IMG/VR virus record: IMGVR_UViG_3300020183_000012
Location: 1 to 64,000 of that record
Reading direction: 5' to 3' (one strand)
From: a virus
DNA: 64,000 bases
A program made the position numbers and the translations under genes. The notes under the pieces were generated by a model. The model saw only the letters and a list, made by a program, of their open reading frames with translations. It was not told the origin of the DNA and ran no database searches. Shown here one piece after another: positions 29,617 through 56,805 of the stretch; within the stretch, counting starts at the first letter, position 1, and every line of letters starts with the position of its first letter.

Positions 29617-29880
29617 ATGAAAAATTTATTTAAATTATCACAGGTTGATTTAAAAGGCATGCCTGGTTCTATGGGGGACGCTGTTTCTATAAATATAGAT
29701 GTTCCTAAATTTATTCAGCAAATGGGTCTTCAAAATCTTAATAATCTAGAAAATATTGGTAATGGTTTTGATCAATTGGCTGGTCAGCTTGAACAAATAA
29801 AAGATCCAAGGTCAACACAAGCAAGAGCAATAATTACTCAGGTTAGAAACCTTCAAAATAGCATAAAATCATTTAAATAA
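29617..29880 (+). CDS. Small protein with NLFKLSQ N-terminal tag (87 aa)
   Basis: Not recognised apart from its start, M-K-N-L-F-K-L-S-Q, a variant of the N-W-Y-K-x-[AS]-Q tag found on other proteins here. The rest is Gln/Asn/Leu-rich and helical with heptad-like spacing, ending in a basic segment. No Shine-Dalgarno is present; AAAATATAATT abuts the ATG. It is followed after 1 base by the 1017-aa gene. Confidence 0.6.
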   Translation: MKNLFKLSQVDLKGMPGSMGDAVSINIDVPKFIQQMGLQNLNNLENIGNGFDQLAGQLEQIKDPRSTQARAIITQVRNLQNSIKSFK

Positions 29881-29881
29881 T

Positions 29882-32800
29882 ATGAAGTGCAGCCCAGCTA
29901 ATGTTTATAAGCTTTTGAACGCTTCCAATACGGGGAATGCTAATAATATAAATTTAGGTGAATATCAGCATGTTATTGAAGATATCATAAGAAGGATAGG
30001 TGAAAAAAAATATAAACTTTCATTTATTCTATCTGCATTTGGTGGCATGCGTAATGCTCTTGAGGACGAAAATTGGGATTTTGAAGTTGATTATGATAAA
30101 ATTTATGAATGGCTAGATAATGATGACTACTGGATGGAATCATATGATGATTACTGGGATGAAAGTGATAATTTCTTTCATTATATAGGCTCTGTAGCCA
30201 ATGAGGATGAAATTAAACAAACTATAATATCAAATTTCTATGATGGCAACTTTAGTGCAAGTATGTCTTCTCTTTTGGAAAGTTGTTCTGGATCCTACGC
30301 TGAAAATTACAATCCTGATATTATACCAGTACAAACAATAATACAAGGCATCCTGGAAGACAATTTTCTGAATGCTTTAATTTCTGACATAGAATACGTT
30401 AAAATAATCCCTGATCACCGTCATCCATCTAATAGGGCAAAAAAGCATAACATAAATCCATCTAGTTTTTTTTCTCAAAAATTCTATGAAAAAATAGGCA
30501 TGCCATTCAATAGCAGGCCATCTCTTTCTCAGGAAGAGCTGGAAACATTTTTTGAACATTTAATTGATTATCTTGCCGGTATATATGCTGATGAAGTAGA
30601 ACATATGAATTCAGATAGTGAAATTATAGATGTTTTAAAATCAAATTATGAAGATAGCGCAAAAAAGAGGTGGATAGATGACAATAAAAGAGATTGGCTT
30701 AGGAGCGAAGCTGAAAACCACGCAGACAGTAGTGCTCAAGAGTTCCATAGTTACAATGCAAGATTGTCAAGGTTGTATCTTGGTAGTGATGCTAATTTGA
30801 CTGGATTTGCTCATCATCATTTTCAACCTATTACTAAAAGAATTGTCAAAGACAGGTGGATTTATTTTACAGGAGAAGATTCAGGCACAATATCCGTAGA
30901 TGAATCTCAGCCTGTTTCCAAGATTGGTATTGACGAATGGACTGATATAGCAGAAGAATTGAGGGAGCATGCAGATAGCTTTTATATAGATGAAAAGCAT
31001 AGTGAATTTATTGAAACTATAAAAAAATATTCAGATGCCATCAAGTTTGTAATATCTTCAGATCCAGTTTTAAAAGAAGTTTTCTCTGAAGAATCATCTG
31101 CTTACACTTCTTCTCTTGATGAAAGCGCAATAGTTCAGCAAGATGAAATATTTGCAGAAGCTTCTCATTACATGAGTCCTGAAGATTCACAAAAATTTAT
31201 GAGAGATGTTGCTGGCAACTCTCCAGAAAGAATTAGGTTAATAGAGGAGGCCAGAGAGAGAAGGAGAGCACAGGACGAACAAGACAGAATCCTTAGACAA
31301 AGGGCCGAGGAACAAAGACAGAGAGAATTTGAAGAAGAATCTAAAGCAATAGTTGAAAAAGAATCTTTAAGAAAAAAAATAACAGAAGAAAAGCAAAAAT
31401 ATCTTTCTAATCCAGAATTGATTTATAAAGATTTTGGAGATGATGGTGTCCGTATAGCCAAGGAAATGGGTCTTTTTGATAAAGGTTTTAATTTTAAGTC
31501 TTTTATTAATCTTGGTAGATCCTTCCCTGGTCAGCACGCTACAAACGTTGTTGTTTCAGATGCTGCAAATCACTCATCTAAAATAAGGCATTATTCGGAA
31601 ATTTTAGAGCCATTTAATATAGTCATACATCCTAAACATAGTGAAAAAGATCCCAAGGGAATGAATGTTGTTTTTGATAATGGGGATAGTGACGGCGGCA
31701 TAAATTATCATCATAGAGGTCTCACTAGAGACCAGACGCCAGAAGGATATTATAATTTTCTTGGTTGGGTTGGCGGAGGAATAGACTGGTTAAATAAAAC
31801 TATGTATGTCACGGAAATACAGAGTGATGTTGTTCAAAAGACTTATAGAATGAGAGATTTTCAAGCTAGTATGTCTGGGCTTGAACAGGAAAAAAATAAA
31901 TTGATTGATGAAATATCTTCTTTAAGCTCAAAGATTGAATCTTTTGATAATAAAAGTTATTTTGAAAATAAAATAAAAGAATTAGAAAATAAAATAAACT
32001 CTTCCTCAGACGAGCAAATGAAGCAAAGATTAAGGGTCGCAATAGATGCAATACGTAATCAAATGGTTAGCGGGATAGACCCGAATCAGCAAGATAAACA
32101 AAAATTAGAAAAGCTTAAGGCAAATCTTGCTGAAATAGAAAAGCAGATTTCTTCAATATCGGATAGAAAATCAGAAGACAAATCTCCTCAATTAAATAGG
32201 CCTCATTTGTCTCAGTTTAAGTCAAGAATAGAAAATAGATTCGAAGACTGGCTAGAAATATTTTACAATGAGATATTTAGATATTGCAATAACCTTGAGA
32301 TCAAAGCTCTTTATCTGGTAGGTGCTTCAACTTTGCATAAGTTGTGGACAGGGTGGTCAACTCAAGAAACTTTTGAGATGTTTAAGAAGGTTTATGACGA
32401 TCAGGCTTTGAAACATCAAATGGAGAAAGTAAAATTTAACAATAGTGTATGGTGGAAATTAGATTTAGGAAATAGAATGCCAAAATACGCAAAATCATGG
32501 TATAAAACAATAAAACTTGCTCAAAATGACTTTTCTAATGTCAATATATCTGATTTACTTGATCAGTTCAGAAGAGGAGCAATAAGTCAAAGTGATCTTG
32601 AACAAAAGATAAGAGAGAGGTATGCTGAATTTATAAAAAGCGGGCCTGTTAACAAAAATATATATGTTGAAAAGCTGAAGGCTTTTTTTAAGACACACTC
32701 CCAAATTATGGGAGGATCTGAAGAATTTGACTCTGCAGATGATGACTCTGCAGATGGTGAATACTCTAAGTTGGAGAGAATTAGATCTGCAATATCTGCT

Positions 32801-32935
32801 TTTATGAGCACGACGGGAAAAGAATATATGGATGAAAACGGAGAGGAACTAAAGGAGCCATTCAAGTCAATACTCCATAGATTCCTTATCCAAAATTATA
32901 ATTATGATTTAGAGCTAGATGAGCTTATAGATTAA
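29882..32935 (+). CDS. Giant polyvalent-type protein with LPD-like domain (1017 aa)
   Basis: Large multidomain protein. Residues 1 to about 440 are acidic and mostly helical. About 450-500 is a charged coiled coil rich in Arg/Glu/Gln. At about 515-665 lies a domain with YHHRGLTRDQTPEGYYNFLGWVGGG and Y-V-T-E-I-Q-S-D-V-V-Q; the E-I-Q-S-D strand is the mark of 'large polyvalent protein-associated' domains carried by phages and conjugative elements. A coiled coil (about 665-770) is followed by a globular piece, and at about residue 872 comes S-W-Y-K-T-I-K-L-A-Q, an internal copy of the NWYK tag. The C-terminus is acidic. I infer a protein made for ejection with DNA; no enzyme activity can be assigned. 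Confidence 0.6.
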   Translation: MKCSPANVYKLLNASNTGNANNINLGEYQHVIEDIIRRIGEKKYKLSFILSAFGGMRNALEDENWDFEVDYDKIYEWLDNDDYWMESYDDYWDESDNFFHYIGSVANEDEIKQTIISNFYDGNFSASMSSLLESCSGSYAENYNPDIIPVQTIIQGILEDNFLNALISDIEYVKIIPDHRHPSNRAKKHNINPSSFFSQKFYEKIGMPFNSRPSLSQEELETFFEHLIDYLAGIYADEVEHMNSDSEIIDVLKSNYEDSAKKRWIDDNKRDWLRSEAENHADSSAQEFHSYNARLSRLYLGSDANLTGFAHHHFQPITKRIVKDRWIYFTGEDSGTISVDESQPVSKIGIDEWTDIAEELREHADSFYIDEKHSEFIETIKKYSDAIKFVISSDPVLKEVFSEESSAYTSSLDESAIVQQDEIFAEASHYMSPEDSQKFMRDVAGNSPERIRLIEEARERRRAQDEQDRILRQRAEEQRQREFEEESKAIVEKESLRKKITEEKQKYLSNPELIYKDFGDDGVRIAKEMGLFDKGFNFKSFINLGRSFPGQHATNVVVSDAANHSSKIRHYSEILEPFNIVIHPKHSEKDPKGMNVVFDNGDSDGGINYHHRGLTRDQTPEGYYNFLGWVGGGIDWLNKTMYVTEIQSDVVQKTYRMRDFQASMSGLEQEKNKLIDEISSLSSKIESFDNKSYFENKIKELENKINSSSDEQMKQRLRVAIDAIRNQMVSGIDPNQQDKQKLEKLKANLAEIEKQISSISDRKSEDKSPQLNRPHLSQFKSRIENRFEDWLEIFYNEIFRYCNNLEIKALYLVGASTLHKLWTGWSTQETFEMFKKVYDDQALKHQMEKVKFNNSVWWKLDLGNRMPKYAKSWYKTIKLAQNDFSNVNISDLLDQFRRGAISQSDLEQKIRERYAEFIKSGPVNKNIYVEKLKAFFKTHSQIMGGSEEFDSADDDSADGEYSKLERIRSAISAFMSTTGKEYMDENGEELKEPFKSILHRFLIQNYNYDLELDELID

Positions 32936-36706: not shown

Positions 36707-37242
36707 TACTTTTTCTTTTTCTTACTTGATGTTGTTCTCCATCCTCCGCCATGCTGCTTGTACCATCTTGCAGCCCAGCCATTTGCGTAGGCACTAGGAT
36801 ATACATCAAACTTTTTTCTGGCAAGAGACTTTGCTCTTGACCACAAAGATGGATTTGTTGGTTTTGCTTTTTGCTTACCCCTTGGTTTTTTTGATCCCTT
36901 TTTTGCTGCTTCTTTTTCCATAAAGGACTCGTAATTAAGAGCGTATTTCTCTACATCGTGCATAGGAGTTTTTGTATACATGTCATGGTATGGACAGTAG
37001 TACTCTCCTTGTTTAGGATCATAGTAATAAGCCATTCCGCTTTTTCCCACGAATGGGCCCTCAAGTCCTGACCTTGGTCTGAATTCTTGGCCTTTGGAAT
37101 CAATTACAAGTTTCGGATTTCCTTGTGAGTCAAATTGTCCCATTTCTTTTTTGGGGTCTTCAGTTTGGGCGGTCTTTTTCATTCCGCCCATTTTTTCCAT
37201 AAAAGATTTCCAATTTATTAGGTTTGGTGTGTTATTTTGCAT
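36706..37242 (-). CDS. DUF5872-like basic protein with Lys-rich tail
   Basis: The 178-aa protein ends with LWSRAKSLARKKFDVYPSAYANGWAARWYKQHGGGWR, a domain known from large viruses and cyanophages (DUF5872-type, function unknown), followed by TTSSKKKKK. The middle has a conserved-looking GMAYYYDPKQGEYYCPYHDMY. The N-terminus contains N-W-K-S-F and, at about residue 22, K-K-T-A-Q, resembling a split NWYK...TAQ tag. It forms a pair with the next gene, which has the same Lys-rich end. Confidence 0.6.
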   Translation of the reverse strand: MQNNTPNLINWKSFMEKMGGMKKTAQTEDPKKEMGQFDSQGNPKLVIDSKGQEFRPRSGLEGPFVGKSGMAYYYDPKQGEYYCPYHDMYTKTPMHDVEKYALNYESFMEKEAAKKGSKKPRGKQKAKPTNPSLWSRAKSLARKKFDVYPSAYANGWAARWYKQHGGGWRTTSSKKKKK

Positions 37243-37251
37243 TTTTTCCTT

Positions 37252-37548
37252 TTATTTTTTCTTTTTCTTTGTAAACGTTCTGACAAAATTAGGAGATCTT
37301 GCCTTACCGGAATTATCTGATTTATTTTCGACTTTTCTTTTTCTGGAGCATGCAGATTGCCTTTGGCTTTCCGACATGGACTTTGCACTGGATCTCGGTC
37401 TGCATTTTGGGTAAGCTCCTGAGTCAGCGTTAGATCTTCCACACGGAGGGAATGAGCCGTCTTTGTTTTTGCGGCATATGTTCACCCAGTCTCCTTTTTT
37501 TCCCTTGCCAAACCATTCATTTAAAGATGCTGTTTTGTACCAGTTCAT
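37252..37548 (-). CDS. NWYK-tagged Cys-rich small protein (DUF6321-like)
   Basis: The 98-aa protein starts with a perfect M-N-W-Y-K-T-A-S tag, then KKGDWVNICRKNKDGSFPPCGRSN...YPKCRP...MSESQRQSACSRKRK, the pattern of a small uncharacterised viral domain (DUF6321-like) with four spaced Cys, possibly a zinc fold. It ends in TFTKKKKK, matching the tail of the neighbouring gene. TTAAATATT abuts the ATG on the minus strand and no Shine-Dalgarno is visible. Confidence 0.65.
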   Translation of the reverse strand: MNWYKTASLNEWFGKGKKGDWVNICRKNKDGSFPPCGRSNADSGAYPKCRPRSSAKSMSESQRQSACSRKRKVENKSDNSGKARSPNFVRTFTKKKKK

Positions 37549-38097: not shown

Positions 38098-38100
38098 CAT

Positions 38101-38172: not shown

Positions 38173-38175
38173 TTT

Positions 38176-41887: not shown

Positions 41888-42670
41888 ATGAATTGGTTTA
41901 AAATATCTCAATCACAACAATCTGAAATAACATATGTTGTTCAAAAGGGAGATACTCTATCTGGTATTTCTAAAAAATTATTAAATAATGTTAACAGGTG
42001 GCCAGAGATACAGGCTTTAAACAACATTAAAGATCCCAGCATAATTAAACCTGGTCAAATACTAAAAATACCTTCCGTCAATTTGGAAGAGATATCAAAG
42101 CCCGTTCAGAAAACCCCAATTGTTTCTCAATCTGGGGTCCTTGAGGCTCTTAAAAAAGAAATATCAAGAACAGAGGGTAACTATGGTGCTTATAACAGGG
42201 GCAAAGCTGGAGACACAACTGTCCCCCAAATAGACATAACTAAACTTACAATTGGTCAAATTATGCAAATGCAGGCAAATCGAAAAATGTTCGCTGTGGG
42301 AAAATATCAGATGATACCTGCTACCTTAAAAGAAGCCATAAATAATAAAAAAATAGGACTAAAAGAAAGCGATGTATTTAGTCCTCAAAACCAAGAAAAG
42401 CTATTCATGTATTTGCTGTACAAGAGACCCTCTCTGATGTCTTATATTGAAGGCAAAAGCGACGATATTGATGCCGCAGTGAACGATTTGGCTAAAGAAT
42501 TCGCTTCTCTACCCACAACTTCAGGAAAAGGTTACTATGATGGAGACAGTGCTGGCAATAAGGCATCTGGTGGTAAAGAAAGAGTAGATAAAATAAAAGA
42601 AATATTAAAAAATTTAAGGTCATCTTTATCTAGTTCTGGAGGTGTACAGAATGCAGGCAAGACCAAATAA
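41888..42670 (+). CDS. NWFK-tagged LysM plus lysozyme-like endolysin
   Basis: I start at the ATG 41888, giving 260 aa with M-N-W-F-K-I-S-Q-S-Q, a clear member of the NWYK tag set. Residues about 15-62 are a LysM domain (TYVVQKGDTLSGISKKLL...PSIIKPGQILKIP). From about residue 85 a lysozyme-fold domain follows with EISRTEGNYGAYNRGKAGD, LTIGQIMQMQANRKMFAVGKYQMIPATLKEA; E96 is the candidate catalytic acid. The Ser-rich C-terminus is short. It binds and cuts peptidoglycan. The tag suggests a virion-associated (entry) lysozyme rather than or besides a lysis enzyme. GATAAATATAGT abuts the ATG. Confidence 0.75.
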   Translation: MNWFKISQSQQSEITYVVQKGDTLSGISKKLLNNVNRWPEIQALNNIKDPSIIKPGQILKIPSVNLEEISKPVQKTPIVSQSGVLEALKKEISRTEGNYGAYNRGKAGDTTVPQIDITKLTIGQIMQMQANRKMFAVGKYQMIPATLKEAINNKKIGLKESDVFSPQNQEKLFMYLLYKRPSLMSYIEGKSDDIDAAVNDLAKEFASLPTTSGKGYYDGDSAGNKASGGKERVDKIKEILKNLRSSLSSSGGVQNAGKTK

Positions 42671-44429: not shown

Positions 44430-45131
44430 ATGTTTTTCAATTGGTATAAGACTGCACAGATAAAGTCTACAATGATTCATTCTTTGGATCCGGCAGATTT
44501 TCCTGTTAGAATATTTTTTTCACATAAAGCCAACAAAGATTTGGAATCTATGGATAAAACAAGAAAACAAGCTATTATGGATTCTATTAAAAACTGGCCT
44601 CACAATGTAGGTTCATTTACTCTGACAAAAAATCTTCACAAGTTAGAAGTTTCATATCTCAATAAGCCAAGAGTGATGTATTTTCAGTGCAAAGAAAATG
44701 AAGACATCGTAATGTATATTTACAGATGCTTCCCAACTCATGCAGAGTACAACAAGGCTCTTCCTTCTCTGGCCAATATTCCAAATTTTTGCGTTGATAA
44801 AAACGGAGAAAAAAATCCTCAACTTTTGTCTTTGTTTGACAGGACACCTTGGTATGAAAACAAAAAAGATAAAAAACAAAAGATAAACATACAGATATAT
44901 CCTGTGTTTGATTTTGCCTTAATTTGTTATCATAAATTCAAACTTGGTGGACAAAAAGGTCTAGAAGAAGTTTTGGAAGAATTAAAAAATTTAGACGAAA
45001 ACAAAATTTATGATTTGATAAATGAGATTGAAAAAATTAATTCTAGCGATAAGTCTTTTGAAAATTTTATAAAAAATATACTGAAAAATAAAATATTCAA
45101 AATATGGGACAGTAAAATGTCTAATTTGTGA
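44430..45131 (+). CDS. NWYK-tagged protein with RelE/ParE-like toxin domain
   Basis: The 233-aa protein begins M-F-F-N-W-Y-K-T-A-Q, the strongest example of the tag. Residues about 27-110 read IFFSHKANKDLESMDKTRKQAIMDSIKNWP...LTKNLHKLEVSYLNKPRVMYFQCKENEDIVMYIYRCFPTHAEYNKA, the helix-helix-strand-strand order of RelE/ParE-type proteins (K-L...R-V-x-Y...v-x-x-x-x-x-h-x-x-Y). The C-terminal half is helical and unrecognised. No antitoxin-like partner is adjacent. If active it would cleave mRNA on ribosomes or bind gyrase; this is a fold-level guess. TATAAATTAAT abuts the ATG. Confidence 0.5.
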   Translation: MFFNWYKTAQIKSTMIHSLDPADFPVRIFFSHKANKDLESMDKTRKQAIMDSIKNWPHNVGSFTLTKNLHKLEVSYLNKPRVMYFQCKENEDIVMYIYRCFPTHAEYNKALPSLANIPNFCVDKNGEKNPQLLSLFDRTPWYENKKDKKQKINIQIYPVFDFALICYHKFKLGGQKGLEEVLEELKNLDENKIYDLINEIEKINSSDKSFENFIKNILKNKIFKIWDSKMSNL

Positions 45132-47554: not shown

Positions 47555-49150
47555 ATGAATTTAATGGTTCACAACTGGCTAAAAAGAGCTATGGCTGGAC
47601 AATTGAGTATGGAGGCATACGCAAAAACAGTCAAAGACAAAGATCATCAAATGATGATTATTCATGGCGACAAGCACATAGGCAAAGAAGTTGGTCTTGT
47701 GTTGGCGGCACAGAATCCATACCTTCATGAAGAAGTTCAGGAGTATGTGTACGAAATAACTAAGCCTTACATCAAAAGCGACACTTACTCAGGTTACACT
47801 GTTTCTTGTAAGGAAGAAAGCAGTATTGGCATTTTAACTGCCATGTCAGATAATCCCATTATGTCTAAAGAAATTATTTCTAAATTGGTTGATGATTTGG
47901 AGTTGATATTTGATGAGGTAAATAAAACTCCCCTAAGATCATATAACTATGACAGGCATGATTTAATATTGAAAATTTATTCAAAATATGGTGAATTTTT
48001 AAAAAATGCTTCCTCCAAGCATAATGTTACAAAAAAATCACAAAATAAAATAATAAATATTGCATCTTCCTTTAGTCAAATTTCAGGCTCACAACATTAT
48101 TACGGATATGATTATCAGAGAAAGGAAATTGCTACTATTGGTGATGATTTGATGTCTTCTTTAGTAAGTAATCGTTTTATAAATGTTGATGAAAGACTTG
48201 AAATTACAAACCAGCACTTGAATCCTCAGGTTGTATCAAGTTTTGTCAAAAGTGAGGGTGTTGGAGCCAGTCATGTTGCTGGTATTATTTCAGGAAGTAT
48301 TTCAAAAACCGATGGTATCAATGATGCTCAAATTGATAATCGCTTAAAAGCAATGATAGGAATGGTTGAATCGGTAAATTTTGAGGACGAAAAGATAGAA
48401 AAGCTTTTTTTCTCTCAACAATTTATTGATTTTTTTAATAAAATAAATTCTCTTCGTCAATACCATAGTTCTCCTGGACACAGGGATTATGAAGAATTTC
48501 AAGGGTATAAATATTATGTTTTAAACGCAATGGCAAAAAGAGCCAAAACCGAGGAAGCAAGAGTTAATTTTTTCAAAATTATTTTAAATGATGCAGGTGA
48601 TAATATTTATAAATACCGTTTAATTCACGATCTTTTAAAATTAGTCATGGATACAGGGAGAATATCAGAAGAGTTTGTGGATTTGCTTTTTAAAAGTATG
48701 GGTAAATTAAGTGCGTTTCAGCATTTGCATACAGCATGCAGCAACAATTTTCATTTATTTAAATACGTATTTGATAAATATGTTATTAAAGAAGAAATAT
48801 TTGAAACATCAACACTTTCTATGAACATTAATAGGTGGATTAAATGTTGCATAGATAGAGGAATAAACTGTGAATCCCAGTCTTCTCTTTTAGATTCCTG
48901 GATATTGAAGCACAGAGAATTACTTAATAATGAGTCCCGTAGTTGGAATATTCAGAATATTTTGTTTTTTCCTTCAGACAACAATTATCCGCTTTTGTTT
49001 CTTGATTCAAAAAATAAAAAATGTCCTGAAGTAGTTAGAAAAATAATTTCAATTGGTGGAGGCTCTTTTAGAAATAGATTCATTATTAAAAGACTGAGTG
49101 AAGTGAGATCAATGATTTCTCGTGGCACATGGCAAAAGGATTCTTTATGA
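47555..49150 (+). CDS. NWLK-tagged repeat protein (HEAT/LRV-like), paralogue 1
   Basis: I start at ATG 47555 (531 aa; ATG 47564 is also possible) because the tag H-N-W-L-K-R-A follows at once. An upstream frame adds an unrelated hydrophobic stretch. The body has degenerate helical repeats with N-P-x-x-x-x-E-[VI]-x-x-x-[LV] turns (AAQNPYLHEEVQEYV, MSDNPIMSKEIISKLVDDL), like HEAT or leucine-rich-variant repeats. Four other proteins (49147, 52323, 53801, 55306) share tag and repeat style. It overlaps the next gene by ATGA. Function unknown; a binding scaffold is likely. Confidence 0.6.
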   Translation: MNLMVHNWLKRAMAGQLSMEAYAKTVKDKDHQMMIIHGDKHIGKEVGLVLAAQNPYLHEEVQEYVYEITKPYIKSDTYSGYTVSCKEESSIGILTAMSDNPIMSKEIISKLVDDLELIFDEVNKTPLRSYNYDRHDLILKIYSKYGEFLKNASSKHNVTKKSQNKIINIASSFSQISGSQHYYGYDYQRKEIATIGDDLMSSLVSNRFINVDERLEITNQHLNPQVVSSFVKSEGVGASHVAGIISGSISKTDGINDAQIDNRLKAMIGMVESVNFEDEKIEKLFFSQQFIDFFNKINSLRQYHSSPGHRDYEEFQGYKYYVLNAMAKRAKTEEARVNFFKIILNDAGDNIYKYRLIHDLLKLVMDTGRISEEFVDLLFKSMGKLSAFQHLHTACSNNFHLFKYVFDKYVIKEEIFETSTLSMNINRWIKCCIDRGINCESQSSLLDSWILKHRELLNNESRSWNIQNILFFPSDNNYPLLFLDSKNKKCPEVVRKIISIGGGSFRNRFIIKRLSEVRSMISRGTWQKDSL

Positions 49151-50115
49151 GAAAGCCCAAACCCACTAACTGGATCAAAAGGGCAAATCGTTTTGTGCCT
49201 TTTGAGTTTTTTAGTGCAAATCCTGATGACTACAAGAAGTACATAAAAAATCCAGACTGTCCTCCTCCTATGCTTACCGCCGCGTGGGAAGATGTTAAGT
49301 CAGGAATGGAAGATATTAAAATCAATATGGCCAGTATAGCTGCTGATGGCGAACTTGGCAGTCGTTGCAAGAGCATAGAAGATACTATTATTAGTATTAC
49401 TATTAATCCCAACACTCCCGAAGATATCATCTTTGAAATGACAGAAATTAACTGGCAAGCTTTCAAGTTTAGATGTCAAAACATGGAATGGAAGAAAATT
49501 ACTCGCGAACTTATTAATACAAATTCATACGAAAATTTAGTAAAAATTTTTGAAAATGCTAATAAAAAATTGAGTAGTTATGATGAAAAATCAAATTTTA
49601 CTGCTTATATTCATGATTCTATTTACGCATTAAATGTAATTAGAATGATCATGCATAGAACGACATATTATTCTCGCACAGACGCAGTAGACAGAATGTA
49701 TGATTGGGAACCGGTTAACACTTTTATCGAATATGTTAAAGACAAACAATTAAATATAATTAAAAATTTTGTTGATTTTTTTGAAAGAACTTTTATTTCA
49801 CACGATAAGGAAATTCAAAAAGAATTATATAATATTGCTATTTTGGGTGCGGGAGAGGATTATTCTTCAAAAGCTTTTGTTTCCCAAATATGGGAAATTA
49901 TGTTTATGATGCATGCTAGGGCTGAGAGTGGTACTGCTTATGGTTATGGAATTAATTATAAAACTACTAAAAAGTGCGCTGAGTTAACCAGAAAAATGGC
50001 GTCCGCTGGTATTATTGATAATTCCTCTACTTTTTCGATGTATAGGCATCGATTATATGATGTGAAGAATATTCTTGGCATGCCACTTGTGCACAAGTAC
50101 AATGATCCTTATTAG
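49147..50115 (+). CDS. NWIK-tagged repeat protein, paralogue 2
   Basis: I start at ATG 49147 because it makes an ATGA overlap with the upstream stop and has AAAAGGA 6 bases before it. The 322-aa protein reads MRKPKPTNWIKRANRF, then a repeat with SITINPNTPEDIIFEMTE. The centre is helical. It pairs with paralogue 1 in one operon and ends at the composition shift near 50.15 kb. Confidence 0.6.
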   Translation: MRKPKPTNWIKRANRFVPFEFFSANPDDYKKYIKNPDCPPPMLTAAWEDVKSGMEDIKINMASIAADGELGSRCKSIEDTIISITINPNTPEDIIFEMTEINWQAFKFRCQNMEWKKITRELINTNSYENLVKIFENANKKLSSYDEKSNFTAYIHDSIYALNVIRMIMHRTTYYSRTDAVDRMYDWEPVNTFIEYVKDKQLNIIKNFVDFFERTFISHDKEIQKELYNIAILGAGEDYSSKAFVSQIWEIMFMMHARAESGTAYGYGINYKTTKKCAELTRKMASAGIIDNSSTFSMYRHRLYDVKNILGMPLVHKYNDPY

Positions 50116-50148
50116 CACTCTCCATTCATGGATAAACCATAATAATAA

Positions 50149-50196: not shown

Positions 50197-50303
50197 TCAT
50201 GCCGTATGTCGTATGGGGCCGTTTTTGGTCCTCTCCCCCTGCCTCTCCCCCCCCTAGGTGTGTCTCCCCTCATTTTGACGGATCTTTTGTTTTGAGGGCG
50301 TGT
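50197..50303. other. Gene-free GC-shift segment
   Basis: After the AT repeat, runs such as CCCCCTGCCTCTCCCCCC appear, unlike anything in the preceding 50 kb. With its flanks this makes a gap of about 300 bases without a gene (50116-50419). It also holds a short repeated element (50304) and the start region of the zinc-finger gene; I see no RNA gene. Confidence 0.5.
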
Positions 50304-50338
50304 AGAAGTTGCATCCCGGGAATAGACTAGTACGGGTG
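50304..50338 (+). repeat. Shared upstream element, copy 1 (AAGTTGCATC...ACTAG...GGGTG)
   Basis: AAGTTGCATC, GGG, GAATA, ACTAG and GGGTG occur in the same order as at 58894-58926. Both copies lie upstream of a small gene, so this may be a promoter or operator used in the GC-richer region. Confidence 0.45.
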
Positions 50339-50419
50339 TCTGCGCTTTTTTGTCGATAGAGTGTTGTTGTGGTTGTATGGTGTTTTCGGGGTGTACCTGT
50401 ACCTGAGGAGTGTCGATCC

Positions 50420-50683
50420 ATGAGTGGAGAGTGCGATGTATGCGGTGGCAGGGGTTGCGTGGATAGGAGTCACTGCGCGTGGGCTGACCGTATGCGTTCT
50501 TTGGAGTCTCGTGTTGACGTGCTGAGCGAGGGGATGTGGAGGGCGTTACGTGAGCGTGACGAGGCTAGGCGTGAGTACTGTGCGTTGTACTCGGACTTTT
50601 ACCGTGGTGAGGGTGAGCCGCCCCATCCCCGTGAGGTTGCGGACGGCAAGGGTTGGGACTGTTTTAGGGATGCCAATTCATGA
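50420..50683 (+). CDS. Small Cys-rich (zinc-finger-like) protein (87 aa)
   Basis: I start at ATG 50420 (GAGGAG 11 bases upstream). Residues 4-17 read C-D-V-C-G-G-R-G-C-V-D-R-S-H-C, a probable zinc knuckle, then an Arg/Glu coiled coil (LESRVDVLSEGMWRALRERDEARREY) and an end ADGKGWDCFRDANS. That K-G-W-D-C-F-[RK]-[DE] tail recurs in the broken gene at 51811. Codon and base use is GC-rich, unlike the left region. Confidence 0.55.
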   Translation: MSGECDVCGGRGCVDRSHCAWADRMRSLESRVDVLSEGMWRALRERDEARREYCALYSDFYRGEGEPPHPREVADGKGWDCFRDANS

Positions 50684-50731
50684 GCCACGATCCGATTCCT
50701 TTTGTGGGCGACAATATGAAGGAAACTACGA

Positions 50732-51025
50732 ATGATTGAACCAACAGAAGGTGAAATTGTTGATGTACTGAACAACTACCTCAACAGCGGTAACCGAGAT
50801 ACATTTCATCAGATTTTGATTGGTCGTGCCATCAAGGAGATCGAACGGCTTCGCAAGGAGCGTGACGAAGCATTGTTGGAGAAGGGTCGCATTATGAATG
50901 AAATTGATTGTCGTATCGAACATGGTGCAGATAGTAACCGTCATCTTGAAGCAATTCGTAATCTGTTTTCAAAGAAAGCAAAGATGGCCAGACTGGATGA
51001 ATTGAGAGAGATGGGACTACTATGA
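50732..51025 (+). CDS. Hypothetical coiled-coil protein (97 aa)
   Basis: Not recognised. It contains a KEIERLRKERDEALLEKGRIMNEID coiled coil, similar in style to the preceding gene's Arg/Glu helix. It overlaps the start of the PEP-CTERM gene by ATGA. Confidence 0.55.
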   Translation: MIEPTEGEIVDVLNNYLNSGNRDTFHQILIGRAIKEIERLRKERDEALLEKGRIMNEIDCRIEHGADSNRHLEAIRNLFSKKAKMARLDELREMGLL

Positions 51026-51714
51026 ATATTTACAATGGAATTTTAACTCTATGTGTTTCTTCGTGCTTTGCAAACGCAAGCGTCACTCTTGTTGATTTTG
51101 AAATTGATCCTAATGCAGACGCTCCATATTATGATGATGTAGGATTTCTTGAGGATTATCAAGGTCTTCGATTTCAATGTTTGGAAAATGGTGTACCTGA
51201 TGTTCATTCCCCCTCACAATGGAATAGTTCTGGGTGGGGTTACTATGAACGGGGGGCATGGGGGTCTATTCCCGGTGGTCCTATCCCCGGAGCGGGTGTT
51301 GGTGTGATTGGAGATAGAGCAGCATTTACTCCCTTTTACTCTAACTGGTGGCACAATCCAGTGAATACCAGATGGTCAATCAGTAGAGTTAATGGTGGAG
51401 ATTGGCATTTCTTTGGTGCTTGGTTCACAGCCATGTGGAATCCGGGAAACATTCGTGTTCAAGGAATCAAGGACGGTCAAACTGTATTTGATTATTCACA
51501 AAGCATTTCAAGCGAGTATCGTTCTTGGCTAAGTTATGGAGCAGGGTATGAAATTGATACTCTGTTGATTTGGAATAATATTTCAGGTCAATTTGATGAT
51601 CGCAAGCATTTCATAATGGACAATTTCTACTACATGGAAGCTGTTCCTGCTCCCGGAGCATTTGCGCTTGGGATGGTTAGTTTTGTGTTTGGAACAAGTC
51701 GTAGGAGAAAGTAA
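51022..51714 (+). CDS. Secreted PEP-CTERM-like protein
   Basis: The 230-aa protein has a signal peptide (MNIYNGILTLCVSSCFANAS) and ends V-P-A-P-G-A-F-A-L-G-M-V-S-F-V-F-G-T-S-R-R-R-K, a P-x-P motif, hydrophobic stretch and Arg cluster. That is the exosortase sorting signal of PEP-CTERM type in the planctomycete style. The body is Trp/Gly/Tyr-rich and beta-like (WYSN, GGDWHFFGAWFTAMW), as in extracellular binding domains. Such host-type surface proteins are unexpected on a phage and suggest host origin. ATGA couples it to the upstream gene. Confidence 0.7.
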   Translation: MNIYNGILTLCVSSCFANASVTLVDFEIDPNADAPYYDDVGFLEDYQGLRFQCLENGVPDVHSPSQWNSSGWGYYERGAWGSIPGGPIPGAGVGVIGDRAAFTPFYSNWWHNPVNTRWSISRVNGGDWHFFGAWFTAMWNPGNIRVQGIKDGQTVFDYSQSISSEYRSWLSYGAGYEIDTLLIWNNISGQFDDRKHFIMDNFYYMEAVPAPGAFALGMVSFVFGTSRRRK

Positions 51715-51830
51715 TGACCGAATATTTACTATTTGTTTCTGTGTTTGAACTTCTAGTTATTGTTTGGTTGTTAATTGACAATTACAAAATGTTTTGCGAA
51801 TTGAGGAAGAATGGACAGAAAGATGCTTGA
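51714..51830 (+). CDS. Small membrane protein (38 aa)
   Basis: A 38-aa frame overlaps the previous stop (TAATG). It has one hydrophobic segment (YLLFVSVFELLVIVWLLI) and a basic end. It overlaps the start of the broken gene at 51811. Confidence 0.45.
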   Translation: MTEYLLFVSVFELLVIVWLLIDNYKMFCELRKNGQKDA

Positions 51831-51948
51831 CAAACTTGAGGAGTTGTTCTATAATTTCGGTGAAACATCTAAACACATTGGTCGTGTGTAGACTGATGGT
51901 GTCGCACAGAGCAAGGGGTGGGACTGCTTCAAGGAGACACTCTCATGA
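51811..51948 (+). pseudogene. Amber-interrupted paralogue of the 60-aa gene at 45850
   Basis: The frame reads MDRKMLDKLEELFYNFGETSKHIGRV, then TAG, then TDGVAQSKGWDCFKETLS and TGA. The paralogue at 45850 has I-G-R-I-E-T-D-G, so TAG stands where GAG (Glu) would be. The downstream part is intact and ends in the K-G-W-D-C-F motif also found at 50420. Either a nonsense mutation or amber readthrough explains this. Confidence 0.6.
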
Positions 51949-52196
51949 TGACTGAGATTACACCTGGTTCTGAAGACGATACGAAAGGCGAGTTTTACCA
52001 TATTCTTCTTGATGCACGCAGTTTGCGTACCGCTGCGGACGCGGTTGACGTTACGATGCCCAAGTGGATGGGGGAGGCCATGCGTCGGACAGCAACTGAA
52101 GTTGAGAGGATGGTTGGCATGATTCAACTTATGCGCATTGAGCATGAATTTAGACCGGAGGGGCCTTCGGCCCCTCCGGAAAACAGTGCGAAGTAG
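51945..52196 (+). CDS. Hypothetical protein (83 aa)
   Basis: I start at ATG 51945, with AAGGAG 9 bases upstream and a 4-base overlap with the broken gene. Helical and Met-rich in the middle (MGEAMRRTATEVERMVGMIQLMRIEHE). Its last codons are part of a strong UUCG hairpin. Not recognised. Confidence 0.5.
   Translation: MMTEITPGSEDDTKGEFYHILLDARSLRTAADAVDVTMPKWMGEAMRRTATEVERMVGMIQLMRIEHEFRPEGPSAPPENSAK
52155..52179 (+). terminator. GC-rich hairpin with UUCG tetraloop
   Basis: CCGGAGGGGCC-TTC-GGCCCCTCCGG, an 11-bp stem closed by C(UUCG)G, inside the end of the coding region. There is no T-run directly after it; a T-rich second hairpin follows at 52234, so the pair likely terminates transcription. 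Confidence 0.6.
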
Positions 52197-52233
52197 GCCT
52201 GTCTCTTGCCCCCGAAAAAATTAATTCTTTTTG

Positions 52234-52257
52234 CCCCTCTCCGGAGGGGTTTTTTAT
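52234..52257 (+). terminator. Rho-independent terminator
   Basis: CCCCTC-TCCG-GAGGGG followed by a T-run (TTTTTTATT). It ends the small-gene block before the GACGATAAAG motif and the next tagged operon. Confidence 0.8.
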
Positions 52258-52270
52258 TACAATTTGAGTA

Positions 52271-52280
52271 GACGATAAAG
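52271..52280 (+). promoter_or_regulatory. GACGATAAAG motif, candidate promoter
   Basis: TAGACGATAAAG lies 43 bases before the ATG of the tagged gene at 52323 and right after a terminator, as expected for a promoter. Confidence 0.45.
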
Positions 52281-52322
52281 ATATTTTACAGGATAGTTCC
52301 TTTAAATTATTTAATTATTTCT

Positions 52323-53804
52323 ATGAAATCCAATTGGTACAAGAAGTCTGGGAGTGGTTTTTGGGGCAAATTGTTCCGGGGGGATAAGCGGGTTATGTCC
52401 TCGGAGGAGCGCATTGCATTTCTCCGTAGCATTAGTGGTAAATTTGACGAGTTCCGTGGTGGGCATGATCCTGTTGCTTATGAAAAAGCCAAGGCTTTGG
52501 TAGAGGACCCGCAGACAGGCGTTGATGTCCTTGAGCTTATTTTAGAAGATGGTAGACTTCCTGAAACCATAAAGTTATTTATTTTTGGTAACCCGAACAT
52601 GGACGAAGATCTTCTCGAGAAATTGATTGATAGTCCTCATCAAGTATTTTATACTCGTGCAGCCTTTTCACCAAAGGCTACCGACAAAATTTTCAATAAA
52701 ATAATGCATCGTTGGATGAGAAGTCCTACCTCCGAGGACTTTGACTCAAATTACTGGAGAATTAAGTATGCAGTAATGAATCCTGTTGCTCCAACTTGGT
52801 TTTTGGCATTTGTGGCAAGATCAGTAAAATTGGTCCACCTTCTGGTTGAAGCTGTTAAAGATAATCATCTTAGATTAGAAAACATGTCTTATGATGTATT
52901 GTTTGGTGTGGTAACGAATAGAGATCGAAAATTTGTAGAGGAATCAAAAGAATTTAAAGACCGTTGCCTTTCTTTGATTAAAGATCGGGCCATTGAAGGG
53001 ATAAGTAAAGGTACGGTTTCTTATGACAATGCTGACTTTAACCGTATCAACAAGATGATGAATGAAACGGCTGAGCATGGGGGTAATGTTAGGCATTCTC
53101 TTATGGGAGTCCGGGCAGAAAATACCAAAGAAAGAGAAGAGTATTTGTCTGAATTGACTTCAGTTGCCGTAAATCCAAACACTCCTGAAAAAGTGCTTCT
53201 TATGATGATAGAAAACTCTTTACATCGTAATATAATTACTTCACATACATATTTTCCTAAATTGATTGGGATGAATAACGGTGCTTCTCCTGCAGTTTTA
53301 AAATCATTAATTACTTTTGATGAACGGGGCCCCGTGATAAATGGATTAGATGCCATAGAAGAAAATGCAGATTTGAAAAGATTGGTTTTTAGCCATCCTA
53401 ATTTTACACGTGAATTATACGATGTGGCGCTTAAATCAATTTTTGAAAATCCTAGAACACAAATTCCGCATGTTGTGGCACGCTTATTGGCTGACTCTAA
53501 GTTTACAACTAAAAAAGAAATAGAATATATTTTGTATAAGTTAGAAGAAATGATATCCGGAGATTATATTTACTCCAACGACGTAATGGTACAAGGGGTG
53601 GCAACGCCTTTTGTAAACAAATTTATTCATGATTCTAAGCTTATGGGTATTTTTAATGATTTATTTAAAAAAGGTATGGATAGGCATGTAAGGTGGGGGG
53701 CATACAGTGAATCCCTTATTGTAAAAAGATTACGATGGGTTAAGAGTAAGTTTTCAGGAACTCCCAAGGCAGCAATGGTTGTAGAGTGGGATATGAAATT
53801 ATGA
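52323..53804 (+). CDS. NWYK-tagged repeat protein, paralogue 3
   Basis: The 493-aa protein begins M-K-S-N-W-Y-K-K-S-G-S-G, then repeats with FGNPNMDEDLLEKLI, AFSPKATDKIFNKI, AVNPNTPEKVLLMMIEN and SHPNFTRELYDVAL, clear N-P-x-x-P-x-x-[LV]-[LF] turns of HEAT/LRV-like repeats. It heads a three-gene run joined by ATGA overlaps. Base composition is intermediate. Function unknown. Confidence 0.65.
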   Translation: MKSNWYKKSGSGFWGKLFRGDKRVMSSEERIAFLRSISGKFDEFRGGHDPVAYEKAKALVEDPQTGVDVLELILEDGRLPETIKLFIFGNPNMDEDLLEKLIDSPHQVFYTRAAFSPKATDKIFNKIMHRWMRSPTSEDFDSNYWRIKYAVMNPVAPTWFLAFVARSVKLVHLLVEAVKDNHLRLENMSYDVLFGVVTNRDRKFVEESKEFKDRCLSLIKDRAIEGISKGTVSYDNADFNRINKMMNETAEHGGNVRHSLMGVRAENTKEREEYLSELTSVAVNPNTPEKVLLMMIENSLHRNIITSHTYFPKLIGMNNGASPAVLKSLITFDERGPVINGLDAIEENADLKRLVFSHPNFTRELYDVALKSIFENPRTQIPHVVARLLADSKFTTKKEIEYILYKLEEMISGDYIYSNDVMVQGVATPFVNKFIHDSKLMGIFNDLFKKGMDRHVRWGAYSESLIVKRLRWVKSKFSGTPKAAMVVEWDMKL

Positions 53805-55309
53805 AGATTAACTGGTACAAGACATCACAGAGTCAAGGGAATTGCAAAATGACACTTGACCATTTTAAGCAATTGGGCGAACAGTTGGGCAGACAAAATA
53901 GTTTTCTTTTTAATACTAAGGGATACCAGGAATCTCTACTTGAATGGTCGCGCTGCATGCGCTCTGCCCTTGATCCAAGCACAACAGGCGAATATAGAGT
54001 GCCAAATCCAGGAGACATGGAAGGGTTGATGATAAGTATTGCTAAGGGTGAAAAAGTCGTGGATATACCTGAGACTCTCCAGAACATATCCAGATGGTAT
54101 GGCTCTGCTTGTATGGCTTACCTTTCTGGGGTGTTAAAATTATTTAAGGGGCGGTTTCCAATGGAAAATTTAAAATCACTGAGGAGCGGAATGTGGGCTG
54201 AAAGGTTACCATTCTGGCTTGCTGACAAGGAATCTTTGGAGCGGGTCCTTGAATTTACAAAAACTTCTGAATATAATTCTGCCATAGTTGCTGGGTCTTG
54301 GGTCTACGGTGTCATGAACAATCCCAACTCTCCGCATGAGTTGCAGAAAAAAATATTTGATGACATGGTAAAAAATAAAAATTTGATTATGGCGACAAGC
54401 ACACAAGACTCTCATTCGGCTGAAGTTGCGGTTGGATTAATGTGCAACCCAAATGGGAACCAAGATGTGATGAAATCCATGTTATCCGGTGGCATAATTC
54501 ACTTAAACTCCACTTTGGTAAAAATGATAAATGCCAACAATGGAATTTTTAACAAGATGTGGAGTTGGAGATCTGCGCATACTGGGAAAGTGACTCCGAA
54601 TGAATCTGTTCTTCAAGTTGTTTCTGAGTACATAAACAAGATTGTCAGCCAGTGGCATTCGTCAATGTTCGACTCCATGAGGGCAATGGACTCAGCACCT
54701 CTGTATCCGATGATGGAATTGGTAATGTGGATGAATGTTTACAGTAAGAATCCAGAGACTATAAGGAGGAATTACGACACCTACCTGAAGGCAACGTTGA
54801 TAAAGGCAAGACCTAATGAAGAACAATCGCCAGTGTCAAAAATTGGCAAGGGAGGATTAATTCTTCCTGCATCTTATCTGACCCACAACTTGATTATGAG
54901 TTTTGTCATGAGGCAGTCAGCACTGAAAGACGAAGACGTGCAGCAGTTAATGGAGATTCTGATAAAGCATCACTTTGAGCAGCATGCGTTCGGAATGGAT
55001 CCTAGTGGTTCCTCTGCTGGAATTCCTATAGCTCCAATTATACTTAGCCTGACTAGTTTTGATACACGCGCTGGGATAGAAGGTTCACATCAAGCGGAGA
55101 TAAGCGGAAATTTCACGAACAAAAAACTAAAGGAGTCTTTTGATGGAGCTTTAAGAAGATTTGATTTTAAAACATTTATGAAAAAGATTAAGGATAATCC
55201 GAATGAATTCATAGATGTTCGTGGCAGTACAATAGGTAGCTTTAATTTGTATTCAATTAGACTTACTATTGTCAAAAGCCTGGAAATGCACAAGGGGGCA
55301 AGTTTATGA
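53801..55309 (+). CDS. NWYK-tagged repeat protein, paralogue 4
   Basis: I start at ATG 53801, whose ATGA overlaps the upstream stop, giving M-K-I-N-W-Y-K-T-S-Q-S-Q. The 502-aa protein has NNPNSPHELQKKIFDDM and NPNGNQDVMKSMLSGG repeats in the first half and a helical second half. It is related in layout to the next gene (WSRCMR/FSRCMR segment near residue 55). Confidence 0.65.
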   Translation: MKINWYKTSQSQGNCKMTLDHFKQLGEQLGRQNSFLFNTKGYQESLLEWSRCMRSALDPSTTGEYRVPNPGDMEGLMISIAKGEKVVDIPETLQNISRWYGSACMAYLSGVLKLFKGRFPMENLKSLRSGMWAERLPFWLADKESLERVLEFTKTSEYNSAIVAGSWVYGVMNNPNSPHELQKKIFDDMVKNKNLIMATSTQDSHSAEVAVGLMCNPNGNQDVMKSMLSGGIIHLNSTLVKMINANNGIFNKMWSWRSAHTGKVTPNESVLQVVSEYINKIVSQWHSSMFDSMRAMDSAPLYPMMELVMWMNVYSKNPETIRRNYDTYLKATLIKARPNEEQSPVSKIGKGGLILPASYLTHNLIMSFVMRQSALKDEDVQQLMEILIKHHFEQHAFGMDPSGSSAGIPIAPIILSLTSFDTRAGIEGSHQAEISGNFTNKKLKESFDGALRRFDFKTFMKKIKDNPNEFIDVRGSTIGSFNLYSIRLTIVKSLEMHKGASL

Positions 55310-56805
55310 CGTGGTACAAATCTGCGCAGACTGGATCGCCCGAATGTGAAATGTCAAATGATGAGCTACTCGCATACTCAAAATTTGTCATTAACCTAAG
55401 AAAAAAATCAGGTTACCAAGATTTTTTTCCTGAAGATATATTGAAAAACTATCCGTCAGTGGTTGAACTTATTCGATCTGGATACGCTCCTCTTGCATTC
55501 TCTAGGTGTATGAGAAAGGAAGCTAAGCCATGGGGAATACAAGGAAGCTGGGGACCATACTGGGCACTTGAGAAACTTTTGCTCGATGACCTTGGCATAG
55601 ACTCGATGTACTCTCGTCATTCAATAATCGATGAGACAAGAGCAAATCTTGCTCATTGGTTCATGGAGACCTACATGCCATTAGCGGTAGATAGCCCAAA
55701 TAGATCAAGGGATTCTCAGGTCGTGTTAATTTCAAGCAAATACATAAGCACTGAGATGATAGATGCATTTTGGGAATTGGACAGAAATGAAAGGGAGAAA
55801 GCGAGTGGTTCACGAAACGAAATGTCATGGATGATCAGAGAGGAAACCTACGCAACATTATTTAAAAACCAAAACACCTCAAGCAAAATTCAGCTAGAAA
55901 TAGCTAAGCTTACGGGGTACAGGAACGATTCTTTCCACTGGCTTATCAAAAATCCGAATGGCAGTGGCGATGCCATGAATTGGATGCTTAGCAATGATAA
56001 AAAGAATACTTTTACCTCTTACGGCAGAAACGGCGTGAATGCCCTGTTCTTCGACATGTCACCGGGAGCAACAATAAATGACTCAATTGCAGAAGTATTG
56101 AGTCATCATATGCTTAAAATTTTTGATAGTAAAAAATATGATATTCACGGGAAAGGCCTACCCGATCCCGGTAGAACTGGCGAGTTCAGCTACGAAGAAA
56201 AATCTACGCTGATGGAATATCTTATTAAAATTTGCACGAAAACCAAGAGCAAAACAGCAATGCAAAACCTTTTTTCACTTGCCCTTGCGATGGGAGGAAT
56301 ACAGAAAAAAGAACACAGTTTGGAGCCACTGAAAAGCAGGCATATTTTTAATGCCTATAGCCCCCAAAGTGCCACACTTATGATTTTGCGTTTGCTTTCT
56401 CCATTCGTGGTAAATCATGAAAAAATGGACAAAGAATCAGTGCAAAAGATACTTATATACATCTCTAGTATAGACAATCTCTACATGGAAGAAGTGATGG
56501 AAAGTAAAGGAATGACATTGATTGGTTTCGACACGCTTGGCATCATATGGTCTTCCTACAGAAGTATTGCTGGAACGAAATCCTTCGTGACCGAGCAATC
56601 GTATGAAAGACATGGACAGGAATTTACAGAATTTATGACTGACAGCAAAAAAAAGATACTAGATGCGGTCAAAAGCTTAGACATAAAAAAATTCTTTGCT
56701 CATGCATATAGCATAGGAATGCCCAAGTTGAATATGTACAAGGTTGCCATAAGTCAAGCTAAAATAAAAATGGGTAAAATGGATTCATGGGCCAGTCGCT
56801 TATGA
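55306..56805 (+). CDS. TWYK-tagged repeat protein, paralogue 5
   Basis: The 499-aa protein starts M-T-W-Y-K-S-A-Q, has FSRCMRKEAKPWGIQGSWGPYWALEKLLL, then KNPNGSGDAMNWMLSND repeats. It shares the C-R-C-M-R-type segment and overall order with the upstream paralogue, so the two arose by tandem duplication. ATGA overlap. Function unknown. Confidence 0.65.
   Translation: MTWYKSAQTGSPECEMSNDELLAYSKFVINLRKKSGYQDFFPEDILKNYPSVVELIRSGYAPLAFSRCMRKEAKPWGIQGSWGPYWALEKLLLDDLGIDSMYSRHSIIDETRANLAHWFMETYMPLAVDSPNRSRDSQVVLISSKYISTEMIDAFWELDRNEREKASGSRNEMSWMIREETYATLFKNQNTSSKIQLEIAKLTGYRNDSFHWLIKNPNGSGDAMNWMLSNDKKNTFTSYGRNGVNALFFDMSPGATINDSIAEVLSHHMLKIFDSKKYDIHGKGLPDPGRTGEFSYEEKSTLMEYLIKICTKTKSKTAMQNLFSLALAMGGIQKKEHSLEPLKSRHIFNAYSPQSATLMILRLLSPFVVNHEKMDKESVQKILIYISSIDNLYMEEVMESKGMTLIGFDTLGIIWSSYRSIAGTKSFVTEQSYERHGQEFTEFMTDSKKKILDAVKSLDIKKFFAHAYSIGMPKLNMYKVAISQAKIKMGKMDSWASRL

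Follow-up and report, generated by a model that had tools for sequence, protein, structure and literature searches.

Tagged genes in the window

The window analysed here comprises positions 1 to 64,000 of the 146.7-kb virus record IMGVR_UViG_3300020183_000012, and contains a series of genes whose products carry a short peptide related to NWYK-x-[AS]-Q, mostly at the start (Table 1). The preliminary description listed eleven instances, all of which were located in ORFs at, or a few codons from, the places it gave. Two sequences required correction: the tag put at 47555 is present as MVHNWLKRA from the ATG at 47564, with NW at 47573, and the tag at 49147 has the sequence given in Table 1. The tag of the LysM protein constitutes a protein start only if the internal ATG at 41888 is used; the orthologue in record G005 contains TWYKMSQQ at the equivalent place. 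A homologue of the 1017-aa protein in the same record begins with MQWYKFAQ, and its last residues are INWYKHTKCGAAR.

Some of the initial domain labels were revised. The protein described as a LysM-lysozyme contains the LysM domain, but no lysozyme domain was found with Pfam, and the protein at 44430, described as RelE-like, gave no Pfam match. An ArdC-like protein is among the candidates, as claimed, but it is the protein at 8966, which carries only the looser NLFKFSA form.

Table 1. Tag instances and candidates in the window
Tag	Protein	Tag position	Strand	Basis or remark
MNWYKTAS	98-aa Cys-containing protein (37252-37548), start	37525..37548	-	ORF start
MNWFKISQS	LysM protein (41888-42670), start	41888..41914	+	LysM Pfam E=2.7e-12
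MFFNWYKTAQ	233-aa protein (44430-45131), start	44430..44459	+	ORF start
MVHNWLKRA	~530-aa repeat protein (end 49150), start	47564..47590	+	ORF start
MRKPKPTNWIKRAN	322-aa repeat protein (49147-50115), start	49147..49188	+	ORF start
MKSNWYKKSG	493-aa repeat protein (52323-53804), start	52323..52352	+	ORF start
MKINWYKTSQSQ	502-aa repeat protein (53801-55309), start	53801..53836	+	ORF start
MTWYKSAQ	499-aa protein (55306-56805), start	55306..55329	+	ORF start
MKNLFKLSQ, variant (K-x-S-Q core)	87-aa protein (29617-29880), start	29617..29643	+	ORF start
SWYKTIKLAQ, internal copy	1017-aa protein (29882-32935), ~residues 872-881	32495..32524	+	
MFRKFNLFKFSA, FNL-class variant	ArdC-like anti-restriction protein (8966-10525)	8966..9001	+	phrog_7245 E=1.5e-6
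MQNNTPNLINWKSFMEKMGGMKKTAQ, displaced form	178-aa protein (36706-37242), start	37165..37242	-	NW, K-T-A-Q further on
MKFNLSRYNRTKEASL, FNL-class candidate	169-aa protein (60600-61109), start	60600..60647	+	weaker
MYNRILFNKYASE, candidate K-x-A-S start	252-aa protein (14668-15426)	15388..15426	-	weak

Spread of the tag and its putative cargo

The shared tag is real, and reaches well past the window. At least nine further NW-type starts are present in the remaining 82.7 kb of the record, which the preliminary description had not covered, and similar phage contigs contained 88 tag matches in 29 records (at most 12 per record), with no match to the reversed pattern. Records of the tagged lineage are up to 548 kb in length. 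A strict motif, [NTSHD]W[YFWLIKHM][KR]x[AST], was found within the first 30 residues of 75 proteins from 11 records, compared with about 3.4 predicted from its rate in the protein bodies of these records (22 matches in 428,792 residues); the reversed strict motif occurred once. Because 10 of these 11 records were selected for having the tag, the unbiased support comes from the newly read 82.7 kb, from contigs chosen by their protease, and from a scan of IMG/VR and cellular genomes. The tag was present in 10 of 40 further contigs selected by the protease alone, and the reversed pattern in none. The scan gave 44 stretches in IMG/VR versus 12 single matches in 257 Gb of cellular genomes. A host origin of the tag was rejected, the cellular matches being so few and isolated. 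A search of the PMC literature for 'MNWYK' revealed no relevant paper.

The search of related phage genomes that had been proposed at the outset shows that the tag marks many unrelated proteins, the 96 tagged proteins of the 11 records falling into 78 unrelated clusters. Inside the window, the term 'unrelated' was an overstatement, because the five tagged proteins between 47.5 and 56.8 kb, which show weak mutual similarity and contain NPNTP-like repeats, may be one paralogous family.

Tagged proteins include G6PD, a CCA-adding enzyme, an AAA_33 kinase, a cREC receiver, ART-PolyVal and PcfJ, and in most of these the Pfam domain starts only past the tag. The polyvalent domains were detected in related records (ART-PolyVal, E=1.2e-17; PcfJ, E=1.3e-9), and account for some of the cargo only. 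Part of the cargo (ART-PolyVal, PcfJ, a SNF2-type helicase and the ArdC-like protein) resembles proteins known or predicted to be packaged.

Tag peptide and head module

The tag, initially described as N-terminal, is mostly so, and usually forms the first 7-9 residues, but copies are also present at extreme C-termini (ending in NWYKISR or NWYKQARSQ) and between domains. In two records, the tag of a kinase lies behind the catalytic domain rather than before it. A [hydrophobic]-K-x-[AS] core is conserved, preceded by NWY, FNL, IIKT or KRLI, and the NW[YF] anchor is as conserved as the K-x-A portion of the core. Orthologues exchange one version for another (MNWYKSA/MKFNLKK, MNWYKQA/MKIIKTA, MNWYKKA/MRVIRTA and MHNWFKSS/NIFKLSS/PIFKLAS). 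In the structure model of a kinase, the tag is disordered and the rest of the model is confident. The signal is in the peptide and not in the DNA, because the codons vary synonymously, including TCN/AGY serine switches, and the upstream DNA is unrelated (likeness over 40 nt of 0.391 for tagged genes versus 0.384 for random gene pairs).

Of the 30 tagged records, many of them fragments, 14 encode a head-maturation protease; in record G001 the protease domain lies in the first ~300 residues of a polyprotein. The same 14 records, and no others, contain the phrog_2522 major head protein, which is of the phage G type and adjoins the protease. The protease is rare: 2.9 million scanned viral contigs contained it at only 48 loci. 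No protease, terminase or major head protein was detected in the window's own record using phrog_18299, phrog_2522, phrog_2 and profile A2, and contigs near-identical to it contained nothing matching phrog_18299 or phrog_2. The AlphaFold model of the protease (four sequences) was poor, with a mean pLDDT of 48, so that the identity of the protease rests on sequence profiles; no meaningful PDB match came from hmmsearch.

The tag core is common to the protease, the portal and another head-module protein. K-x-A is invariant directly before the protease domain, including in gp19 of phage G. Among 45 distinct proteases, 40 contain K/R-x-A in the first 13 residues (shuffle expectation 10.5) and 41 contain it again further on (expectation 7.3), while 36 have both the N-terminal site and the site preceding the catalytic domain. 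Four portals contain K-[NT]-A-Q exactly where the variable N-terminal part gives way to the conserved body, a place where the phage G portal contains KMAS. The other head-module protein contains repeated FNLK-K-x-A-Q and FNWKEAQ. Among all X-x-Y-Z patterns in 36 orthologous groups, K-x-AQ ties with E-x-IT for the most conserved sites, a tie that holds only with all surroundings counted and in which E-x-IT is largely the protease polyprotein repeat; in an unbiased count limited to weakly conserved surroundings, K-x-AQ had 1 site and did not stand out.

Candidate role in capsid targeting

These comparisons show a tag that exists on many unrelated proteins, is conserved as a peptide, and is exchangeable between orthologues. 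We consider it probable that the tag serves as a propeptide for capsid targeting in a lineage of large environmental phages, the head module of which resembles that of Bacillus phage G. A sorting or processing signal of the T4 type, as first proposed, stands as the best-supported reading, since the core is found again in proteins of the head module and in the maturation protease itself, and since types of cargo match proteins known or predicted to be packaged. In the short, disordered peptide, an aromatic anchor (NW[YF], with FNL, IIKT or KRLI elsewhere) would be joined to a [hydrophobic]-K-x-[AS]-(Q/S) core. While the head assembles, this peptide would dock unrelated cargo on the prohead core or the protease polyprotein; the maturation protease would then recognize the K-x-A core and probably cut there, freeing the cargo within the head. 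Cargo would be present in the virion, and may be delivered with the DNA on injection. Several observations were counted against capsid targeting: the window's own record, which looks like a fragment, has no detectable head module; some tags are at extreme C-termini; the structure model of the protease is poor; and the phage Tunturi_5, whose head protein is related, has no clear tag.

An uncut docking motif, which would bind a site on the scaffold, protease polyprotein or portal and recruit cargo to the head, appears unlikely. Docking would accommodate the copies at C-termini and between domains, the displaced kinase tag, and the anchor being conserved as well as the core; moreover, extreme C-terminal tags leave little to trim, and therefore fit docking better than cleavage, although T4 Alt is also processed C-terminally (PMC9026906). 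However, K-x-A lies at the borders of variable propeptides in both portal and protease, as a protease site would. Sorting to another destination (a phage compartment, membrane, tail or host site) is improbable: a sorting signal of any kind would account for a tag that is short, disordered, exchangeable and present on unrelated proteins, but the core is common specifically to head-module proteins and the maturation protease, the tag is unlike a secretion-type hydrophobic stretch, and an N-terminal export signal is ruled out by the copies at C-termini.

The internal copies between domains would also suit a processing site of cargo polyproteins with no targeting role, an explanation made very improbable by the position of most copies, at the extreme N-terminus of small proteins that seem to have a single domain, where nothing would be gained by cutting alone. 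The coincidence of the tag with gene starts could point to an element acting in DNA or translation (a shared promoter, or a module for ribosome binding or the start region) or to gene starts having recombined; this is scarcely credible given the internal and C-terminal copies. DNA-level duplication and a translation signal were rejected on the unalike upstream 40 nt, the varying codons, and Shine-Dalgarno-like sites that are no commoner at tagged genes. Chance or common ancestry, for which the possible paralogy of the five window proteins could be cited, has a negligible probability, and is refuted by the 78 unrelated clusters together with the reversed controls (0 to 1 matches).

The capsid-targeting reading has its closest precedent in T4, where a capsid targeting sequence on the internal proteins IPI-III and Alt is cut by the prohead protease gp21, and where the first 10 residues of IPIII suffice, targeting and cleavage residues being separate (PMC9026906). 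As in T4, about ten N-terminal residues occur on unrelated cargo, the motif is also present in core proteins and the protease, and an ADP-ribosyltransferase is among the cargo (T4 Alt being processed at both ends); a division into a targeting part and a protease motif is predicted here. The systems differ in motif, the T4 cleavage site being [LI]-x-E and the tag core K-x-[AS]-(Q/S) after NW[YF] or FNL, in head lineage (a phage-G-type major head protein), and in the many more putative cargo families of the tagged phages. The N30 peptide of P1 DarB is an N-terminal packaging signal sufficient to package a reporter (PMC9024508). DarB, like tagged cargo, uses an N-terminal peptide, and is a large ejected protein, but the Dar proteins lack a consensus, whereas here one consensus occurs on dozens of proteins. 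In phiKZ and SPN3US, propeptides are cut by gp175/gp245 at S/A-x-E (PMC10052503, PMC9026906). In those phages, as predicted for the tagged ones, the maturation protease has a short motif at which it cleaves many head proteins, among them the portal at its N-terminus; their propeptides are longer (20-254 residues in SPN3US), the motif is Glu-based and, unlike in the tagged phages, small cargo has no short tag in common.

Bacillus phage G (Donellivirus) is related through its head: gp27, the major head protein, is 53% identical to that of the tagged phages, and gp19 is a protease related to theirs. Its genome contains no strict NWYK match. About 18 or more phage G proteins, among them gp13, gp17, gp38, gp53, gp56 and gp57, carry its own MKRLIKK[AS]-like tag, with KRLI as the anchor instead of NWY, and a YHGT ART-like cargo is common to both tags. 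For phage polyvalent proteins, packaging and injection have been predicted (Iyer et al. 2017, PMC5512222), and the tagged cargo likewise includes ArdC-like proteins and the domains ART-PolyVal and PcfJ; that paper describes domains, and a keyword search of it found no shared targeting peptide.

Little is known of which proteins a large phage injects, and a role has been assigned to only a minority of such phages' genes. If the tag is a packaging signal, injected proteins could be listed from their first ten residues in the tagged lineage and, by analogy, in phage G and others. Such a tag would also be the targeting signal so far lacking for the polyvalent-domain proteins whose packaging has been predicted, offer a second, independently evolved code for comparison with that of T4, and help to load proteins of choice into phage heads. 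More broadly, we lean towards the view that large phages outside the T4 group use lineage-specific 'zip code' peptides, which unrelated genes would have acquired time and again and orthologues would have swapped, and which would load a large and changing set of enzymes, some of them metabolic or for RNA repair (G6PD, CCA-adding enzyme, ADP-ribosyltransferases), into the virion for delivery to the host.

Candidate zip codes differ by lineage, with NWYKxAQ/FNLKKxA in the phages studied here and MKRLIKK[AS] in phage G. In phage LR745208, a longer peptide, LRSKLIRLAHxNPxLRPxLLPLLK, is the candidate zip code of its lineage.

Occurrence of the tag

The tag (roughly NWYK-x-[AS]-Q) is confirmed and generalised. 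All starts listed in the preliminary description are present in the window, which spans bases 1-64000 of a 146,719-bp IMG/VR record; beyond it, this record (the window record) carries at least nine further NW-type starts that had not been seen. It also holds FNL-class starts, with FNL in front of the K-x-[AS] core.

Tag sequences in the window record and in tag-bearing related IMG/VR phages (G-numbers); gene starts were called by a simple script
Record	Position	Strand	Sequence	Remark
Window record	98526		MNWLKFAR	NW-type start
Window record	99689		GNWWKRAG	NW-type start
Window record	102108		MNWYKSAG	NW-type start
Window record	102557		MNWYKNAS	NW-type start
Window record	109243 frame		MNWKKRAQ	NW-type start, internal Met
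Window record	113042		MKNWYKHIKISE	NW-type start, CCA-adding-type nucleotidyltransferase
Window record	115456		MKNWFLKSAE	NW-type start
Window record	118440	minus	MHNWFKSSQ	NW-type start; orthologues G002_66890 NIFKLSS, G005_40698 PIFKLAS
Window record	127678		MNWYKNQLNKIA	NW-type start
Window record	141685	minus	MKFNLKKQAQ	FNL-class start
G005	57342		MNWYKSAR	orthologue window record 106859 MKFNLKKFNLNK
G024	42077		MNWYKHSG	orthologue G011_65385 MKEIFSKKYN
G001	116464		MNWYKQAK	orthologue G011_10381 MKIIKTAK
G003	4570		MNWYKKAQ	orthologue G013_48524 MRVIRTAG
G005	45742		INWYKHTKCGAAR	C-terminal copy

Searched exactly for ATG-N-W-Y-K-x-[AST]-Q, IMG/VR yielded 44 stretches spread over 29 contigs, frequently with more than one on the same contig; in 257 Gb of cellular genomes the pattern matched 12 times, each time singly. 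A relaxed pattern matched 88 times in 29 records, and backwards never. The tag marks many unrelated proteins in related phages: in 11 records, 96 tagged proteins form 78 clusters once the tag is removed. At the protein starts of these 11 records, ten of them picked for holding the tag, a count presupposing no motif ranked NWY (73, expected 2.4), NWxK (75, 3.1) and WYK (66, 3.2) highest among combinations of three residues. When contigs were found by the protease only, the relaxed pattern occurred in 10 of 40 and the reverse pattern in none.

Positions 47564-56805 of the window encode, in near succession, five tagged proteins (320-530 aa) that have NPNTP-like repeats, resemble one another weakly and are probably paralogues. 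The 1017-aa protein (29882-32935) matches three neighbouring G005 open reading frames (45217, 45742, 48443), which suggests duplication or splitting. Positions 37732-39807 encode a tmRNA (tag peptide DNYQFNSYRIGFTQFRLAA), then nine tRNAs.

Form, placement and putative cargo

In 121 starts that have NW no later than residue 14, Y or F predominates at position 3, K at 4 and A or S at 6, and Q is frequent at 7. K-x-[AS], when missing from its usual place, was found a few residues downstream in 12 of 26 cases (background 16.5%), as in MNWYSRIIIKTAD, MNWHEVVKLAN and MNWYKNQLNKIAD. Because of this recurrence, the tag seems to be bipartite, with an aromatic anchor and, separately, a K-x-[AS] core. 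Tag codons vary and the 40 nt upstream show no more similarity than those of random pairs; selection therefore acts on the peptide. Orthologues bear differing tag versions (table), most retaining a K-x-[AS]-like core, with the KKYN example (G011_65385) as exception. G007, G011 and G013 show a further recurrent start on small proteins (MKIIK[ST]xK[YF], MKIIKTAK or MRVIRTAG), some orthologous to NWYK-tagged ones.

The tag had been described as N-terminal, which holds for most copies. For a tagged kinase family the AlphaFold model (mean pLDDT 90.7) is confident everywhere but in the tag, residues 1-7. In G002 and G005, however, the kinase domain stands at the very start, and NWYKSAKK or SWYKEAKK follows it; C-terminal copies also occur, as in SNF2-type helicases ending NWYKISR and NWYKQARSQ. 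The tag therefore cannot be a sorting or translation signal confined strictly to the N-terminus.

Domains on tagged proteins include G6PD, PolyA_pol/HD, AAA_33 kinase, cREC receiver, ART-PolyVal, PcfJ and LysM; an ArdC-like anti-restriction protein bears a looser form. The G002 glucose-6-phosphate dehydrogenase (52179-53501) is tagged MNWYKWAQ. Iyer et al. (PMC5512222), who cite T4 Alt and proteins of P1, predicted packaging and injection of phage polyvalent proteins, and P1 DarB is packaged via its N-terminal 30 residues (PMC9024508).

The tag core in head proteins

G001, G007, G011 and G013 share a conserved head module of terminase, portal (phrog_16240), major head protein (phrog_2522, E=1.3e-63) and a large protein of 1.8-2.3 thousand residues, with a head-maturation protease (phrog_18299, E=2.4e-10 in G001) in its N-terminal part. 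Gordonia phage Stormageddon has a homologue under the annotation capsid maturation protease; the one in Mycobacterium phage LinStu lies within a similarly large protein adjoining the major head protein. The protease structure model was of poor quality. The protease occurs in 14 of 30 tagged records, the head protein in exactly those 14. Since the same search across 2.9 million contigs yielded 48 loci only, this is far beyond chance. Profile searches for protease, major head protein and terminase identified no head module in the window record, which has the ribonucleotide-reductase/dUTPase block that adjoins the module in relatives.

The protease proteins themselves start MAFYKTAT, MAMYKRAT or MSFMKKAK, and an invariant K-x-A directly precedes the catalytic domain; His103 and Ser154 are likewise invariant, phage G gp19 included. 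K/R-x-A occurs within the first 13 residues of 40 of 45 distinct proteases (10.5 expected by shuffling) and again in the pro-region of 41 (7.3 expected), start codons being uncertain in a few diverged members. Portals carry K-N-A-Q or K-T-A-Q exactly at the border between a variable N-terminus of ~45 residues and the conserved body, where phage G has KMAS. FNLK-K-x-A-Q or FNWKEAQ occurs several times in one head-module protein, and K-x-A-Q-[FY]-V-G is conserved in another.

This spread over the protease itself, portal border, other head proteins and cargo is similar to how gp21 sites are placed in T4 (PMC9026906) and gp245 sites in SPN3US (PMC10052503). Of the proposed sorting or packaging signal, strict N-terminal placement did not stand, but the core common to protease, portal and cargo best supports capsid targeting, which from these comparisons is probably the tag's role. 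The main rival, that the tag only docks cargo, is favoured by the copies at C-termini and behind the kinase domain.

The G013 polyprotein (contig L088:1732-8652, minus) has an intein (Hint/LAGLIDADG) at the catalytic-serine motif GSSMG|C. Protease matches are split near residue 155 in G016, G018, G027 and many of contigs L199-L217, which suggests that many further protease loci carry the same insertion. Behind the protease, the G001, G007, G011 and G013 polyproteins have five conserved [EV]xITE[DK]QL-like repeats.

Other phage lineages

Bacillus phage G has the closest cultured head (major head protein, 53%). Its genome lacks NWYK, but of 570 called proteins 30 have RLxK among their first 18 residues (about 2.4 expected), with starts such as MKRLIKKAS, MKRLIKKSN and MRRLIKKSN on unrelated proteins. 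Several are YHGT ART-like, one being homologous to NWYK-tagged proteins; cargo and K-x-[AS] core are thus shared, whereas the anchor differs. The uncultured phage LR745208.1 (sequences L229-L248, L145), with a related major head protein, bears a longer, different tag: seven proteins start with an (L)RSKLIRLAHxNPxLRPxLLPLLKEA-type peptide.
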